From: Paenibacillus sp. GP183 | GTDB lineage: Bacteria; Bacillota; Bacilli; Paenibacillales; NBRC-103111 | Direction: 5' to 3' | Length of the DNA: 64,000 nt | NCBI RefSeq assembly: GCF_900104695.1 | Contig: NZ_FNSW01000001.1 | Span: forward strand, 2,976,001 to 3,040,000 | Shown: positions 8,348-16,000 of the stretch, piece by piece | Layout: each line of letters starts with the position of its first letter | How positions within the stretch are numbered: the stretch's first letter is position 1 | Notes under the pieces: model-generated | The model's input: the letters and a program-made list of their open reading frames with translations, nothing else | What the model was told of the DNA's origin: nothing | The model's database searches: none | Made by a program: the position numbers and the translations under genes

Positions 8348-8698
8348 TTAAAATTCGATCAGCCCGACACTGATTTGCAAGGCTTCATCGACCTTCCGCA
8401 TCGTCTCGTCGTCCAGGTGCGTGATTTTATCCGTCAGCCTTTGCTTGTCGATCGTGCGCACCTGCTCCAGCAAAATGACTGAATCCCGGTCAAAGCCATG
8501 CGTTTCCGCGTCAATTTCAACATGCGTGGGCAGTTTCGCCTTTTGGATCTGCGCCGTAATGGCCGCAACGATGACCGTAGGGCTAAAACGATTGCCAATA
8601 TCATTCTGGATAATCAGAACCGGTCGCACTCCACCTTGCTCGGAGCCTACCACCGGTGAGAGGTCCGCGAAAAACACATCGCCACGTTTCACAATCAA
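8348..8698 (-). CDS. ndoA: EndoA (MazF-type) mRNA interferase toxin
   Basis: 116 residues, the same length as B. subtilis EndoA, with [19 protein letters not shown] at the N-terminus and [12 protein letters not shown] following it. The RNase acts by ribosome-independent cleavage of single-stranded mRNA (UACAU in B. subtilis) and is neutralised by the antitoxin encoded three bases upstream. The gene overlaps nothing and is followed by a terminator. In B. subtilis the sigB regulatory genes rsbRA onward follow ndoA; none is present here, so the toxin pair stands alone before tex. Confidence 0.95.
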
Positions 8699-8701
8699 CT
8701 T

Positions 8702-8983
8702 CTACACCCCGCTTACTAAGCGATCCAGCGTATCGTCCGCTTCTTCCTCCACATGAAAAGCTTCTGATGCCATGCTAAGATTAATCATTGCCATTTCCAT
8801 ATAACCGCGCTGCATCGATTCCCGCAAGTTGCGTTTTTTGCGATCCATCAGATAAAGCCTCATTGCCTGACGAATGAATTCACTGCGGTTGGAGTTTTCT
8901 TTTTCCACGATGCCGTCCACCTCCTGCAGTAAATGATCCGGTAAACTGATCATAATTCTTTTTGTGTTATGCGCATTACTCAC
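8702..8983 (-). CDS. ndoAI: EndoAI antitoxin (ribbon-helix-helix, CopG/MazE-like)
   Basis: 93 residues when started at the GTG at 8983, exactly the length of the B. subtilis antitoxin. The GGGGGTG at 8994-9000 then sits at proper ribosome-site distance; the in-frame GTG at 8995 overlaps that site and is less likely. The N-terminal ribbon-helix-helix (KRIMISLPDHLLQEVDGIV) binds operator DNA. The C-terminal acidic tail (EEEADDTLDRLVSGV) is the part that masks EndoA in the family. Toxin and antitoxin are separated by three bases and must be cotranslated. A 12-bp inverted repeat upstream (9053-9083) could be its regulatory site. Confidence 0.93.
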   Translation of the reverse strand: MSNAHNTKRIMISLPDHLLQEVDGIVEKENSNRSEFIRQAMRLYLMDRKKRNLRESMQRGYMEMAMINLSMASEAFHVEEEADDTLDRLVSGV

Positions 8984-9052
8984 TTCAATTCGCACCCCCA
9001 GAAACCTAACAAGACAATATTACCAGTATGGCGAGCCACAGCCAAAATATAC

Positions 9053-9083
9053 AACTGATATATATGCATTGTATATATCAGTT
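9053..9083. promoter_or_regulatory. Perfect 12-bp inverted repeat upstream of ndoAI
   Basis: AACTGATATATA (9053-9064) and TATATATCAGTT (9072-9083) form a perfect inverted repeat with a 7-base spacer, between alr and the antitoxin start. There is no T-run, so it looks less like a terminator than an operator, possibly for autoregulation by the ribbon-helix-helix antitoxin. Nothing else stands out in 9000-9194. Confidence 0.45.
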
Positions 9084-9194
9084 ATGTACTGCTTTTCGTC
9101 CACGGGTCAGCCCATCTCATAAGGTATTCGTGAGGTGCATGGAAATTCCTCTAATTTTCGAAAAAAATGTTTTCCAATTCTCAGCCTTATTGTC

Positions 9195-10370
9195 TTAATT
9201 TCGGTGCCTCGACAACGGATTGACGGCCTCTACCTGTCTGCCTTCACGCATATAAATTCTGGGGACTCTGTGCGAAATCATACAAGTTATCTCATAATTG
9301 ATGGTATTGAGCATTCGGGCTACATCCTCAACGGTAATCCTTTGTCCGCCTTGTTCGCCTATGAGCACAACCTCATCGCCCGTCTTCGCCTGCTGAACAT
9401 CCGACACGCGGATCATACATTGATCCATACAAATTCTGCCCACTACCGGGACTTTATGCCCGTGAATCAAAGCTTCGGCTTTTTGTGTCAGCATACGGGA
9501 ATATCCATCTGCATAACCAATGGGCAAGGTCGCAATTTGCTCTTCATCCTTAGTATGGTAGATCGTGCCATAACTGATACCTGAATCCGGAGGCAGTGTC
9601 TTCAAATGAACGACGCCTGTCTTCAGGGTCAGCACTGGTTTCAGCTCTAATGCATTCACATTCACTTCATTTGAAGGATATAAGCCATACATACTGATGC
9701 CCAGGCGCGCCATGTTATAGGTCAGTCCAGGCAGGTCGATGGCAGCAGCACTGTTTCCTGCATGCAGATAGGTGAATTCGACACCTTTTTCCTTAAAATA
9801 TTGGACGACCCGCTCCATTCGCCGGTATTGCTCTAATGTATAGCTTTTATCGATTTCGTCAGCGTTCGCATAATGCGTGAAAAGACCTTCGACTTCAACT
9901 CCAGGCAGCTGCAGAGCTTCTTCTATAAAAGCAATCGCATCCGGCCCCGTTTGCAGTCCCAAGCGCCCCATACCGGTGTCGAGCTTAATGTGAATTTTGA
10001 GATTTTTGGTATCCGATTTGAGTACCTTTAGGGCTTCCAGAACTTCCTGGCTGTACACATTAATTGTAATGTCATGCTGCAATGCAACGGAAAGCCCATC
10101 AGGCGGAGTATAGCCAAGAGCCAGAATCGGAGCCGTAATTCCGGCGCTTCTGAGTTCCAAAGCTTCATCCAGAAAGGCAACGGCCAAATAATCGACGCCG
10201 CAGCGTACCGCCTCTTTGGACACTTCAACCGCACCATGGCCATAAGCGTCTGCTTTAACAACAGCCATGATGCGGATGCTGTCCGGGAGCTTTTGTTGAA
10301 ATGCGTTTATGTTATGCTGCAAAGCATCAAGTGATATCTCGACCCGAGTTGGCCGGTAAAATGAATCCAA
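9195..10370 (-). CDS. alr: Alanine racemase, PLP-dependent
   Basis: 391 residues. Alr interconverts L- and D-alanine for peptidoglycan synthesis. The PLP-binding lysine is K39 in AVVKADAYGHG, and the second catalytic base is Y267 in GISYGTIY, both at family positions. Other signatures are HIKLDTGMGRLG (about 127-138) and HAGNSAAA (about 203-210). The start is a TTG at 10370; a stop lies four codons upstream in frame, and GGAAGGTGAAGG provides a ribosome site. It lies between the LolA-like lipoprotein and the ndoAI-ndoA pair on one strand, as in B. subtilis (ydcC-alr-ndoAI-ndoA). Confidence 0.96.
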   Translation of the reverse strand: MDSFYRPTRVEISLDALQHNINAFQQKLPDSIRIMAVVKADAYGHGAVEVSKEAVRCGVDYLAVAFLDEALELRSAGITAPILALGYTPPDGLSVALQHDITINVYSQEVLEALKVLKSDTKNLKIHIKLDTGMGRLGLQTGPDAIAFIEEALQLPGVEVEGLFTHYANADEIDKSYTLEQYRRMERVVQYFKEKGVEFTYLHAGNSAAAIDLPGLTYNMARLGISMYGLYPSNEVNVNALELKPVLTLKTGVVHLKTLPPDSGISYGTIYHTKDEEQIATLPIGYADGYSRMLTQKAEALIHGHKVPVVGRICMDQCMIRVSDVQQAKTGDEVVLIGEQGGQRITVEDVARMLNTINYEITCMISHRVPRIYMREGRQVEAVNPLSRHRN

Positions 10371-10467
10371 TCTCCTTCACCTTCCCGTGTATGCATTCCC
10401 CAAAAAGAGCGATAAATCTATGTTAATCCTAATCGGGAAAAGAAGTCAATATCAGGAAGGTGAATCC

Positions 10468-11484
10468 TTATTTACCCATTTGTCCTTGAACGGCGGTTGC
10501 GACCCTCATCATTTCCTTCATAGGCAAATCTGCAGTGGATAGCCGGTATTCAACCCCATCGTGAATCCACGTCAGCGTTTTTTTATCCAATCCCGTTAAT
10601 ACTCCAAGTGTATACCCCAAGTCGACTATACTCCCCGGCTGCAGCGAAACCGTCATCGCCTGCGGCCTCAACTCAACCAAGCTGTAGTTGTATTTGCCTT
10701 TGTACCGCAGCATCACCGCCTGATCCTCTCCAAGCTTCATATCTGTGGTATCCTGCTTAACGACTCCTTGCGGTGTATAGGAAGGCTCAATGATACCGAA
10801 TCCCTGCTGTTTGTTGGTTTGACCCGCCATAGTCGGCAGTGCTTGCAGGTTCCAGCTCGTCATGTTGCGCTCCATATCGAAGGAATCCTTATCAAACTTC
10901 TTACCCAATTCAAAGGATGTGAAATCTACCATGACCATTACTTTTTGATTCGTATCGAGAACCTCTACATGTTGAGGTGTTAAATTCTTTTTGCTGAGCC
11001 AGATTTTTTGGCGGGCCAGCATCTCATTCTGATAATTCGCGAGCACATCGAATACGTACGCGTTCTTGTCTGTTGCTAACACACGGTTCTTATCGTCCTT
11101 TATGCTTTGCACCAACGACTGATACAAGTACACCTGGCCTTGATTTTCCGGCCAATCGCTTTGGAAACGGAAGCTTTTTTTCAATTGCGGCGTCAAAACA
11201 AATACTCCCTGCTCGTTGCGCAGCACAATCTGCGTGATATCCTTCTCTGCATTTTTCAGCGAAATTCGGTAAAAGTTCGGATTCTTGTACCAAACCTCTA
11301 CTTGATACTCCTGGGGCTGCTCACCGGTATAAAGGACCATGCGTCCCGCTCCCTGATAGCTGTCCATTTTGTTTATCACATGATCCAAATCCTTAACAAT
11401 AGATCCTGCATCCCTTTTCCCGCAACCAACTGCAACTAGTACTAAGCACATTACGACAGCTACCATCCATGTGACCCGGCGCAT
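10468..11484 (-). CDS. LolA-like outer-membrane-lipoprotein-carrier-fold lipoprotein (YdcC-type)
   Basis: 338 residues from the ATG at 11484, which has GAGGGGAT about six bases upstream; upstream in-frame starts lack such a site. The N-terminus is a lipoprotein signal: a basic start, a hydrophobic stretch, then lipobox VAVGC with the acceptor cysteine about residue 20. The body has the LolA-like lipoprotein-binding fold seen in B. subtilis YdcC (DWYKNPNFYRI-type strands, QPQEYQVEVWYKNPN, MVDFTSFELGKKFDKDSF). YdcC-type proteins are extracytoplasmic and linked to sporulation, but the ligand is unknown. Position before alr matches B. subtilis. Confidence 0.85.
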   Translation of the reverse strand: MRRVTWMVAVVMCLVLVAVGCGKRDAGSIVKDLDHVINKMDSYQGAGRMVLYTGEQPQEYQVEVWYKNPNFYRISLKNAEKDITQIVLRNEQGVFVLTPQLKKSFRFQSDWPENQGQVYLYQSLVQSIKDDKNRVLATDKNAYVFDVLANYQNEMLARQKIWLSKKNLTPQHVEVLDTNQKVMVMVDFTSFELGKKFDKDSFDMERNMTSWNLQALPTMAGQTNKQQGFGIIEPSYTPQGVVKQDTTDMKLGEDQAVMLRYKGKYNYSLVELRPQAMTVSLQPGSIVDLGYTLGVLTGLDKKTLTWIHDGVEYRLSTADLPMKEMMRVATAVQGQMGK

Positions 11485-11633
11485 CCGATCATCCCCTCGT
11501 CCTTGATTAAAATGAATTAGTACATGCATATGAGGGGACTTGGCCGATTATGCAGACTAGCCTGGGCTTGGTCAAAACTTTGCTGATAAAAATAAAGCTG
11601 CCGAGCTGAATTGTGCAACCAAATAGCGACCAG

Positions 11634-12163
11634 CAGCATTTATGCACCTTGTTGCATGGACATCGGCAGATAACGTGAAATCAGGTGCATTTATGCACCT
11701 TGCATCGCGGATTACCGCGGGTCCCGTGAAACCAAGTGCATTTCTGCACTTGAACTACATCCTACCAGGCTCGACGCGCCTATGTGGTGCATTTCTGCAC
11801 CTTGTTGCATGGACATCGGCAGATACCGTGAAATCAGGTGCATTTATGCACCTTGCTTCGCGGATTACCGCGGGTCCCGTGAAACCAAGTGCATTTCTGC
11901 ACTTGAACTACATCCTACCAGGCTCGACGCGCCTATGTGGTGCATTTCTGCACCTTGTTGCATGGACATCGGCGGATACCGTGAAATCAGGTGCATTTAT
12001 GCACCTTGCTTCGCGAATTACCGCGGGTCCCGTGAAACCAAGTGGAGTTTCTGCACCTTATTACGTGGATATCGGTGGATACCGTGTAATCAAGTGCATT
12101 TCTGCACCTTGGGCTAATTCCTTCTGGGCCAGCAACTGTCTATGTGGTGCATTTCTGCTCCTT
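11634..12163. repeat. Tandem array phased at 51 bp, grouped into 153-bp higher-order units
   Basis: About eleven copies of a GTGCA-TTTA/C-TGCAC inverted repeat (often with AGG...CCT flanks, 7-bp arms) recur at a fixed 51-base step. The cores begin at 11685, 11736, 11787, 11838, 11889, 11940 and 11991, then a degenerate copy at 12042 and copies at 12094 and 12147; a degraded copy lies at 11634. The 31-37 bases between cores are of three alternating types, so three steps form a nearly identical 153-bp unit (11634-11786, 11787-11939, 11940-12092). Because 51 is divisible by three, a long open frame runs through the array; it is not treated as a gene. The array lies in the gap between the ydcC-like gene and the nuclease gene; 11485-11633 holds nothing else I can name. 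Confidence 0.9.
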
Positions 12164-12174
12164 AGCCCCCCACT

Positions 12175-12849
12175 TCACCAAACCCAATCATCCGTAAACG
12201 AGCGCACGAATTCGTACCGGTTCACTTTAGTTTCCTTACCCGACAAGATGGGCCGGAATTTCCCCTTCTTACAAAGGGATTTCAAGCAGAGTACGGCAGT
12301 CCGACGATTGATATCAAGTTCCTTGACTAAATCTACCGGTCGAACAGGTTTGCCCAGACGAAGAACTATAGACAGCGTTTCACGCTCCAAGCGTGTATAT
12401 CTCTGATCTCGCAAACTCGCAGCCATATAAGGTGATAATAATGACTTTAACAAATTAATCGACAGCATGGGTTTCGACTCCAAATTGTCATAAGGAATCG
12501 AAACGACACGAAATCCTAATATTTGTAAAAATGTCTCCCTGTCTAACTCATGACGGTAACGAATCCGGTCTGTTTGTTGAACATGGGGACCAAAACCTTT
12601 CACCTCCATCGCAAATTTACACATTCCTGGCAGCCACGCGAAGTCGATAAAATAGGGTCTTCCCCGCCAATCTGCAACTTCATATTCGGGATGCAAATCG
12701 TCCAAATTGCCAAATATGGACCACCAGACACGCTCTAAAAACAATCTTTCTCCATGACCATGCCCCCGCTCCAATCGGCTCCTGCGCTCCCCGGACCTGC
12801 GCTGAATATGGTACTCCAACCATTTTGTATGCTCTTCAGAAAAACCCAT
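12175..12849 (-). CDS. Stand-alone PD-(D/E)XK-like nuclease with C-terminal HTH
   Basis: 224 residues of no family I can name firmly. The central part reads like a restriction-endonuclease fold (DUF559-like): HPEYEVADWRGRPYFIDFAW supplies a strand with Asp, and AMEVKGFGPH supplies the E-x-K pair, followed by ILGFRVVSIPYDNL. The C-terminal third (about 150-205) resembles a winged helix-turn-helix: VDLVKELDINRRTAVLCLKSLCKKG. The N-terminus is highly basic (RRSGERRSRLERGHGHG). AGGAGGG lies about eight bases before the ATG. The gene ends about a dozen bases from the 51-bp repeat array, so array and nuclease may be functionally linked; that link is inference. Confidence 0.7.
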   Translation of the reverse strand: MGFSEEHTKWLEYHIQRRSGERRSRLERGHGHGERLFLERVWWSIFGNLDDLHPEYEVADWRGRPYFIDFAWLPGMCKFAMEVKGFGPHVQQTDRIRYRHELDRETFLQILGFRVVSIPYDNLESKPMLSINLLKSLLSPYMAASLRDQRYTRLERETLSIVLRLGKPVRPVDLVKELDINRRTAVLCLKSLCKKGKFRPILSGKETKVNRYEFVRSFTDDWVW

Positions 12850-12870
12850 ACCATTAACCCTCCTAAACGC

Positions 12871-12914
12871 AAAAACATCCCGAACTCCCTTTCAAAAAGG
12901 GGAGTTCAGGACGT
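12871..12914 (-). terminator. Rho-independent terminator after the SNF2 gene
   Basis: Arms 12875-12890 and 12899-12914 (GAACTCCC/GGGAGTTC core) form a long stem followed by five T residues on the minus strand. It separates the SNF2-family gene from the nuclease gene. Confidence 0.8.
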
Positions 12915-13035
12915 TCTTCGTCACTGCTTTTTATGATTTCTATTGTAACGGAGCCAGTGATGAGAAACAAGCGATTTATTGTGAAAAGATGACGGGTTGT
13001 ACCAACCCCACCTTTCTCACGTTATAGTTGTAACC

Positions 13036-16000
13036 TTATCCAATCATCAACAGCTCGCGAATTTCTTGTTCGGTCAGGGCGGACAACGCTTCTTGACCGG
13101 GCTGGATCACTTCATTGATAAGATCCTTTTTGCGCTGCTGCAGCTCGAACATTTTCTCTTCAATGGTGCCCTGAGTGACCAGGCGGATGACTTGGACGAC
13201 CTTCTTTTGCCCGATGCGGTGTGCGCGATCTGCGGCTTGCTCTTCTACGGCAGGATTCCACCACAGATCATAGAGGACGACAGTGTCAGCGCCTGTTAGG
13301 TTGAGCCCGGTTCCGCCAGCCTTCAGAGAGATCAAGAAGATATCCTGTTCTCCTTCATTATAGCGTCTGCACAGCTCTACCCGATCACTTGCCGGCGTTT
13401 TACCGTCTAAGTAGAAGGCCATTAGGCCGCGGCGACCCAGCTCACTGCGAATAATGCCTAGCATTTCTGTAAACTGCGAGAAGATGAGCATTCTTTTGCC
13501 CCCGCCCAAGCACTCCTCTATGATCTCCATCAGTTGGTCCAGCTTACCGGAGTCGCCGGTATAGTTGTCCACGAACAAGGACGGATGACAGCAAAGTTGG
13601 CGCAATCGGGTTATACCTGCCAATATCTTCATCCGGCTCTTCTGCAAGCCTTCCGTCTGTAACTGTTGGATGGTCTCCTCCTGAAGCTTCGCTAGATAAG
13701 CCAAGTACAGCTTCTTTTGTTCCGATGACAGCTCGGAGGGCTGAAGCGTCTCGATCTTATCTGGGAGTTCCTTCAGTACATCAGTTTTCATTCGGCGCAG
13801 CAGAAATGGGCGTATCTTCTTCGCAATTTGTTCGCGAGGGAGCTCTGTGAAAGCTTTTTTGCTGGCAAATAGTTCTGGAAATACAGCGTCGTAGATGGAC
13901 CACAGCTCCTCTAGCGAATTCTCTATAGGCGTCCCCGTTAACGCGAAGCGTTGCCCCGCCTCAATAGCTCTGACTGCCTGTGCAGTCTGAGTATTGTGAT
14001 TCTTGAACGCTTGGGCTTCATCGAGAATAAGCGCATAGAAGCGTTGTTTCGCATAAAGCTCAGCGTCCCTGCGAAGCAAAGGGTAAGACGTAATGACCAC
14101 ATCTACATCCGTTAGCTCGTCCAAAATGCCGCTTCTCTCCTGTCTGTCCCCAACGGCTATGACTGCATGGAGCTCTGGAGCGAATTTGGCGATTTCATTC
14201 TTCCAATTGTAAGTCAATGAAGCGGGGGAAACAATCAGCACGGGGTATCCAAGCGCTCGGCTTGCTTGTTGCTCGGATAAGATAAAGGCTATGCTCTGCA
14301 ATGTTTTGCCAAGACCCATATCGTCGGCCAATATACCTCCAAATTGGTAATAGCCCAGTGTCTTCATCCATTGGAAGCCATACTTCTGATAGTCTCGCAG
14401 TACGGTAGAAAGTTTCTCCGGCAGCTGGAAATCGAGATTGTCTGGATTTCTCACATTCTCAAGCAATTGACGAAGCGATTTACCCAACTTAATAGCAGCC
14501 GTCTGCTCCTTAGCGTCCATGAAGTGAAATCCGCGAACGACAGGAAGCTCCAAGCGAGTTCCCTTAATCTCCGTTTTACGAATGCCCATTTCAGTAAATA
14601 AATGATCGATTTCCTGGAAACCTTCCTCTTCAAAGGACAGAAAGGCTCCACTTGGTAAACGGTAATATTTCTTTTTCTCCACCAAACTGCGGAGTATACT
14701 CCGTATGTCTTGCTCGTCAATGCCCTCCATTTCGAAGCTGATGTCGAGCAAGTTGGTTCTCGCATTCATATCGACGCTCACCTTAGGTTGAATGAGGCTC
14801 TTCTCTGTCATTGGCTTAAGGGCAGGGGTTACAAGAACCTTAGCCCATTCTTCCAATTGAGGAAGCTGGCGATGTAGAAATTGATAGATTTCCTCCTCCT
14901 GGTCCATATAGAGCTCTTTACCGTTATACTTGAATAAAGCTTGCTCGAATAGACGCATGAAGCGATTCTCCTGATCAGCATCACGCATTAGTATGCGCTC
15001 CCCGCGATCTCGATGTTCAAGGTTCCCACGCATTGGATCTATAATGATATCCCCATACACATACTCCAGCTTGGCGAGCAGCCGATCGTCCTCAAGATCC
15101 AGAAACAGCTTGATCGTCAGTGGAAGTCTAACGATTCGATTCGCTATTTGCTCAGCGATACGCAGGCTTCCGATCTTAGTTAACCCTGGAATAACTTGCT
15201 CCATGAACGGTTCCATCTGGGATGGAGCGATCCGTAACTGATGCCCGTTTGTAGAAGAGAACATGCTCTTAAGTCCTGCCACCCGTCCTAAATTTAAGAG
15301 ATCCATGATGTGCAACTTATTATCCACAGCTACACATCCATAGCTGTCCATAACAGTCATATCAGTAAGACCGCTTATGTTCAACTGATAGCCCTCGGAA
15401 GCTGCCTGCTTCAGATCAAAATCAAGAGAAACGGGTTCACGGGTCAGTTCCAATCGATCAAAGGTTTGCTTGCCATGCTCTAATCTACATGTAGCTGCTG
15501 ACAAAAGTGGATGCAGTTGCTTCCAGGAAGAAGGAGGAATGATCAATATCCGTTCATTGTTGAAACCATATCCACTGGAATAGAAGCCGTAGGCTTCACG
15601 GTATATGCTTTCATTATTATAAATGTCCAATAATTGTTCGATGATCGCCCCATCGTCCTTCTTGAAGGCATACTCGGAGGGATCGAATGTGAAGCTCTTG
15701 GAGAAAGCATAGGGAGCATGCTTTTCTACTTTGGACAAAAAATCCTTCAGCTTCTGAACAATATACGTTCTTTTGGGCCCTACCTTGATCTCCATGGCAA
15801 GTCTTGGTTTATAACTTCCATAAGTCATCACTTTCACGATAAATTCAACTTCCAGCACTTGCCCATTACCCGCAAAGGAACCCTCCGATTCATGAATAGG
15901 AGCGGAGTGACTGTTGAAGAGCGAAATCAAGTTGTTTGTTGCTTGCATCTCGCGGTTGGAGATGACGGGCGCTTCTATTACAGCAGGCTTAGATGCTTGT

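Follow-up and report, generated by a model that had tools for sequence, protein, structure and literature searches.

Regularly spaced palindromes beside a putative DUF559-winged-helix nuclease gene in Paenibacillus sp. GP183

What is the role of eleven evenly spaced palindromes in an intergenic region of Paenibacillus sp. GP183? In the window, by which we mean the whole 64,000-nucleotide stretch of DNA that was analysed, GTGCA-TTTM-TGCAC sites follow one another between a gene for a GerS-like lipoprotein (10468-11529) and a gene referred to here as nuc1 (12175-12849), both on the minus strand; the array lies 105 bp from the gene ending at 11529 and 12 bp from the nuc1 stop codon. The reading that we favour, with a probability of a little over three quarters, is that nuc1 and its cognate, helically phased palindromes form a stand-alone system of two parts, of which the array is the element at the home locus. 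The relevant features are:

11634-12163, no strand: palindrome array, 11 sites GTGCA-TTTM-TGCAC, 51-bp steps, the final two 52 and 53 bp
11636-12056, no strand: higher-order repeat with a 153-bp unit of three alternating spacer types, present in 2.7 copies at 97% match (Tandem Repeats Finder)
11634-11647, plus: site 1, degenerate, two mismatches, CAGCATTTATGCAC
11685-11698, plus: site 2, exact
11736-11749, plus: site 3, exact
11787-11800, plus: site 4, exact
11838-11851, plus: site 5, exact
11889-11902, plus: site 6, exact
11940-11953, plus: site 7, exact
11991-12004, plus: site 8, exact
12042-12056, plus: site 9, degenerate, one inserted base and one mismatch, GTGGAGTTTCTGCAC (read directly)
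12094-12107, plus: site 10, exact
12147-12160, plus: site 11, one mismatch
12175-12849, minus: nuc1, 224 aa, DUF559/MTES_1575-like PD-(D/E)XK nuclease and MarR-like winged-helix family
12262-12318, minus: nuc1 residues 178-196, putative recognition helix; of all parts of the protein, its identity is the best predictor of how similar palindromes are within the family

A sequence-only reading of this DNA had announced eleven copies of the motif. There are indeed eleven sites, but not eleven identical copies, eight being exact and three imperfect. The regular step that later drifts by one or two bases was recovered (eight steps of 51 bp, then 52 and 53 bp). The unit of three alternating spacers is likewise real, since Tandem Repeats Finder returned a period of 153 (2.7 copies, 97% match) along with a period of 51 (9.3 copies, 63% match, 11636-12056). 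The 153-bp organisation, however, looks less like a functional plan than like a secondary local amplification, the basic plan at other loci being a four-site 51-62-51 element. With up to three mismatches allowed, the window contains 24 matches to the motif against 10.2 expected, a number reached by none of 100 shuffles. An open frame of 254 codons runs through the array on the plus strand (11642-12406) and would be a false gene call, an artefact of 51 being 17 codons. Rfam gave no match at E<=1 over positions 9000-16000 of the window.

The neighbouring gene product is best understood through its relatives. Since nuc1 alone has no significant Pfam match, its domain assignment rests on homologues: DUF559 is matched by 32 of 47 family members (best 1.1e-5), MTES_1575 REase by 12 of the 47, and a MarR-type winged helix (MarR_2) in many of them. 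The residues that are invariant in the aligned family include H14, R18, D60, D69, E82, H89, R95 and R104. A search of solved structures matched the winged helix only, to MarR-type structures, and the AlphaFold model of nuc1, built from a three-sequence input, reached a pLDDT of 55. With a poor model and no significant profile match for nuc1 itself, we infer the nuclease activity of the family from sequence. A Y1 transposase is not among the families shown for the 47 members in Pfam, NCBIfam and PHROGs scans. PADLOC had no match for nuc1 and only a few weak stray ones for the 47 members (SoFic in 3, CARF in 1); a known anti-phage defence system was accordingly rejected, no PADLOC model fitting nuc1.

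Of 120 relatives, 85 have the family, often with several divergent paralogues in one genome. A 300-genome sample of the phylum yielded it in three members of this order and in one distant genome. It is found almost only in Paenibacillales, with a distribution that is patchy even inside the order. The distant genome (G250, locus L164) carries a single homologue, possibly received by horizontal transfer. There was no match in the phage set, and among plasmids the family occurs on one replicon only, of 2.7 Mb, in P. cellulosilyticus; phage or plasmid cargo was rejected on these grounds. No partner family recurs beside nuc genes across paralogues, and orthologous nuc genes share housekeeping neighbours.

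Do the array and the gene belong together? Homologues of nuc1 with 72% and 65% identity directly adjoin arrays in P. psychroresistens and P. cellulosilyticus, and in the flanks of about 90 homologues (32-100% identity) tandem palindromes start just past the stop codon. The sequences of these palindromes differ while the 51-bp step is common to them, and homologues down to 33% identity have different palindromes in the same geometry. Comparing the presence or absence of nuc with that of GTGCA arrays is uninformative because every nuc type has its own palindrome. Once palindromes are centred, the common plan consists of two sites 51 bp apart, a 62-bp gap, and two sites of opposite orientation that are again 51 bp apart. 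Centred steps between pairs of the same orientation are 51 bp (59 times) and 52 bp (14 times); for inverted pairs the steps concentrate around 61-64 and 50-52 bp. A sequence-blind scan within 420 bp found the 51-62-51 geometry 3′ of the nuc gene in 45 of 90 loci and on the 5′ side in 10 of 90, compared with zero in shuffles and 1-5 when the outer spacings were set wrong; these statistics come from modest samples selected via nuc1 homology, and half of the 90 loci fail the four-site scan. The value of 62 bp for the middle spacing derives from the centring, which turned most of the initial spacings of 46-72 bp into 62, and the blind scan also accepts 57 and 67 (off-centre windows). At several loci (L089, L097, L118, L119, L131 and L132) a four-site element lies 5′ of the nuc gene instead of, or besides, 3′.

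A partnership of this kind raises the question of which part of the protein would read the palindrome. Across 29 loci, palindrome similarity rises with protein identity, with a Spearman coefficient of 0.51 for the recognition helix and 0.39 for the nuclease domain. In partial Mantel tests the recognition helix retained a correlation given the nuclease domain (r=0.38, 0 of 1000 permutations), and the nuclease domain given the winged helix had r=0.05 (222 of 1000); the 29 loci share ancestry and their site sets come from a motif finder of our own making. Because the helix predicts the palindrome with the nuclease domain held constant, the analysis supports direct reading of the palindrome by the winged helix. 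The proposal that a cognate protein is encoded next door is well supported in this way, the neighbouring family co-varying with the palindrome through the recognition helix. The sequence-only reading had also held that a unit scattered at random spacing without a conserved neighbour would mark a passive expansion. The opposite was found for spacing, which is kept across genomes with unrelated spacers; a conserved neighbour exists at the home locus, namely the nuclease gene, but not at dispersed copies.

The exact motif occurs 12 times in the 5.8-Mb genome, compared with 0 for a reversed-pattern control. Apart from the window array it is present at two other places, as three sites between fmt and rsmB and as a set downstream of an ABC-F gene, and a looser pattern adds one pair at 3738214 in the same genome. 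Scans of public genomes revealed arrays of the same motif in P. psychroresistens, P. cellulosilyticus, P. harenae, P. terricola and Thermobacillus xylanilyticus, with 13 to 162 palindromes per genome against 0 in the control. Nearly all of these arrays keep the 51-bp step, each with spacers of its own; among arrays, the window's included, deviating steps (50, 52 and 53 bp) are common. None of 29 relatives (0/29) has the sites at the positions between fmt and rsmB or near rlmH, and by this comparison element positions are lineage-specific. Four-site elements of other sequences were seen at the fmt or rlmH loci of relatives (L212 in G006, L253 in G084, L255 in G076), and these intergenic positions are possibly favoured by elements. 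Pairs of GTGCATTTATGCAC at about 55-57 bp on Sulfurospirillum, Arcobacter and Sulfurimonas contigs (L043, L044, L048, L065, L067) were set aside as apparently unrelated, their flanks being different and most of them lying at contig ends.

The genome of the window has two further paralogues, nuc2 and nuc3, each with its own dispersed intergenic elements. A search for the nuc2 palindrome, AGATGYANNNNNTRCATCT, gave 26 matches here, compared with 0-1 in each of nine other genomes that carry nuc genes. Fifteen nuc2 loci, one of them beside nuc2 itself, have four sites at 51/52, 61-63 and 51/52 bp, and a total length of 183-185 bp (n=15); their sites are 72-81% identical in pairwise comparison and their spacers 36-40%, a near-random level, versus 28-30% when shuffled. 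A sixteenth element, found by a blind geometry scan of 464 kb, entered the later phasing and hairpin tests and stands outside these n=15 identity figures. The elements occupy intergenic regions whose flanking genes are unrelated housekeeping genes in every relative orientation, often convergent, and small open frames overlapping some of them are taken as spurious. Two sites from different elements resemble each other as much as two from one element, and there is no element-wide homogenisation. Spacers are never shared between nuc2 elements of this genome; any spread of the elements must therefore be old. For the nuc3 palindrome there are 23 dispersed matches, against 4 in the control, some of them at 51/52 and 62 bp. 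Similarly, the nuc palindrome of an unrelated genome (G058) occurs only in that genome, in runs of 51 and 62 bp. This palindrome, AACACGGANNNTCCGTGTT, is also arranged in higher-order units of about 113 bp (51 + 62) at four loci of contig C1 of G058 (L202, L203, L206, L207), a counterpart of the 153-bp unit. Dispersal is not universal, since not one element turned up in a 400-kb sample of G021, whose genome has eight nuc genes. Geometry matches in G004, the sole nuc-negative sample, were discarded, being runs of N only.

The two spacings are compatible with a single helical repeat: 51.5/5 gives 10.30 and 62/6 gives 10.33 bp per turn. In the nuc2 spacers the A/T content oscillates with a period near 9-10.5 bp, which 0 of 300 shuffles reach, and over the whole nuc2 element the strongest A/T period is 10.3 bp. 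A similar series of A/T maxima is seen in the consensus units derived from 27 GGTGCA arrays, almost all of them from other species. A 10.3-bp A/T pattern is as expected for DNA that is bent or wrapped with its sites on one face, and is indirect evidence for this picture of the element. The placement of the palindromes on the same face of the helix, suggested from the window sequence, is thus well supported, mostly by data from outside the window (51.5 bp for five turns, 62 bp for six, A/T at 10.3 bp). A hairpin of the whole element is not supported, spacers 1 and 3 having no within-element complementarity: spacer 1 scores 0.37 against the complement of spacer 3 from the same nuc2 element, and 0.40 against that from other nuc2 elements.

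Our model for the nuc system combines these data as follows. nuc1 would recognise GGTGCATTTCTGCACC, its putative palindrome, with one dimer bound per palindrome by way of its MarR-like winged helices. These dimers, five or six turns apart on the same helical face, would contact each other, bend or wrap the element of about 185 bp and set the nuclease domains in a defined complex. At the window locus the 51-bp half would have been amplified, single units first and the 153-bp block later, probably by unequal recombination. The part of the model that we favour with least certainty is that the system is a REPIN/RAYT-like genomic resident whose nuclease may once have helped the elements to spread or amplify, and whose surviving elements would now be held at their places by selection. 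The window array is one expanded member of a wider and apparently undescribed class of elements. It seems to us rather probable that this class is one of nucleoprotein elements: paralogous DUF559-winged-helix nucleases with private palindromes, on wrapped and dispersed elements of 5-6-5 turns that are under selection and amplify locally.

The elements might instead be mobile at present, copied or moved by the nuclease much as REPINs are thought to be moved by RAYTs, in which case conservation of the sites would be selfish. We place the chances of this not far below even. It would fit elements that are intergenic, genome-specific and dispersed, with a copy beside the cognate gene, as well as their lineage-specific positions (0/29 relatives at fmt-rsmB or near rlmH) and the obvious local amplification. 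However, no recent copy is visible, as the nuc2 elements share no spacers, neither target duplications nor transposon ends were found, and the phage set lacks the family, which among plasmids is confined to the one 2.7-Mb replicon. A more tentative idea, to which we give clearly less than an even chance, is that the elements serve as architectural or regulatory sites of the host, the former nuclease having become a regulatory or nucleoid-like protein, or one that wraps DNA. Every dispersed position has retained its sites and its length despite drift of the spacers, the 10.3-bp A/T phasing points to wrapping, and the lack of element-wide homogenisation, with sites as similar between elements as within, speaks in the same direction. 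Yet the invariance of the catalytic-type residues D69, E82, H89 and R104 argues for an active enzyme, flanking genes that are unrelated and often convergent argue against promoter control, and the distribution is patchy even within the order.

Readings that do without a cognate protein fare much worse. A passive tandem or hairpin repeat (a VNTR, or RNA or single-stranded DNA hairpins) is very unlikely in our view, even though tandem amplification is seen in the window, the palindromes are able to fold as hairpins and GNRA-like loops (e.g. GAAA) are frequent on the complementary strand: spacings of 51 and 62 bp recur with unrelated sequences, palindrome similarity tracks the winged helix, whole-element hairpins are not favoured (0.37 within, 0.40 between), C-A mismatches are common in stems and Rfam has no match. 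Short palindromic repeats with spacers of constant length bring to mind a CRISPR-like or guide-RNA array, an idea that is hardly credible given that spacers repeat within arrays, that four-site elements alternate site orientation, and that no recurrent cas-like neighbour was present in the examined flanks and PADLOC yielded weak stray matches only. That the array encodes a protein repeat of 17 codons is the least credible of all; 51 is 17 × 3 and the 254-codon frame spans 11642-12406, but steps of 50, 52 and 53 bp break the frame, which runs antisense over nuc1.

For the two-part system that we prefer, REP/REPIN sequences with their RAYT (TnpA-REP) enzymes are the closest working analogue. Both consist of short intergenic palindromes that are dispersed in one genome and match those beside the gene of the cognate enzyme, and both display inverted pairs, clusters, local amplification and a fixed distance with a variable spacer, the latter being a described property of REPINs (PMC3116915). 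The RAYT enzyme is a Y1 HUH (IS200/IS605-like) transposase, in contrast to the DUF559/PD-(D/E)XK-like domain and winged helix of nuc, and REPINs have two sites at about 71 or 110 bp where nuc elements have four at 51-62-51 bp. Furthermore, the REPIN unit is an inverted doublet that pairs into one hairpin; since the left and right halves of nuc2 elements are not complementary, no such hairpin is expected in nuc elements, and their 10.3-bp A/T phasing rather suggests a double-stranded wrapped complex.

With DUF559/Vsr-like and EDxHD nucleases (e.g. I-Bth0305I), nuc shares the DUF559/MTES_1575 profiles as well as invariant D, E and H residues at the equivalent place. It differs from them by the winged-helix fusion, by not residing inside an intron and by its genetic tie to multi-site palindromic elements. 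TnsA of Tn7 has a PD-(D/E)XK nuclease domain followed by a winged helix and acts at multi-site transposon ends; nuc resembles it, by description only, in domain order and multi-site DNA, but no TnsB-like partner recurs in the nuc flanks. The MarR-type winged helix and palindromic sites of 16-19 bp are shared with MarR-family regulators, from which nuc is set apart by the additional nuclease domain and by phased sets of four sites, convergent intergenic regions included. A literature search, conducted largely outside the subscription journals, found nothing that links DUF559 to such elements, nor reports on such repeats, on DUF559 combined with a winged helix, or on a 51-bp palindrome array in Paenibacillus.

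If correct, the model would describe a nuclease-based counterpart to REP/RAYT in which dispersed repeats are read by a resident enzyme within a double-stranded, helically phased architecture. The occurrence of the same spacing with unrelated sequences in different genera leads to a direct physical prediction: shifting a site by half a turn should destroy the complex, and shifting it by a full turn should not. As each paralogue has its own palindrome, the family also supplies a natural series of winged-helix specificities and a testing ground for the co-evolution of nucleases with their dispersed sites.

A few further observations concern the surroundings of nuc genes. The lipoprotein gene on the other side of the window array (10468-11529, minus strand) has a weak, below cut-off match to GerS (NF041286), and a relative of it lies near nuc1 in P. 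psychroresistens. Further away on the minus strand, 8348-8698 and 8702-8995 hold a putative toxin gene adjoining a ribbon-helix-helix antitoxin gene, which together resemble a type II toxin-antitoxin pair, the toxin being assigned by eye. Finally, tandem repeats of 37-42 bp, or about four helical turns, occur near nuc at L073 (on the 5′ side), L085, L099, L103, L115, L134 and L149.
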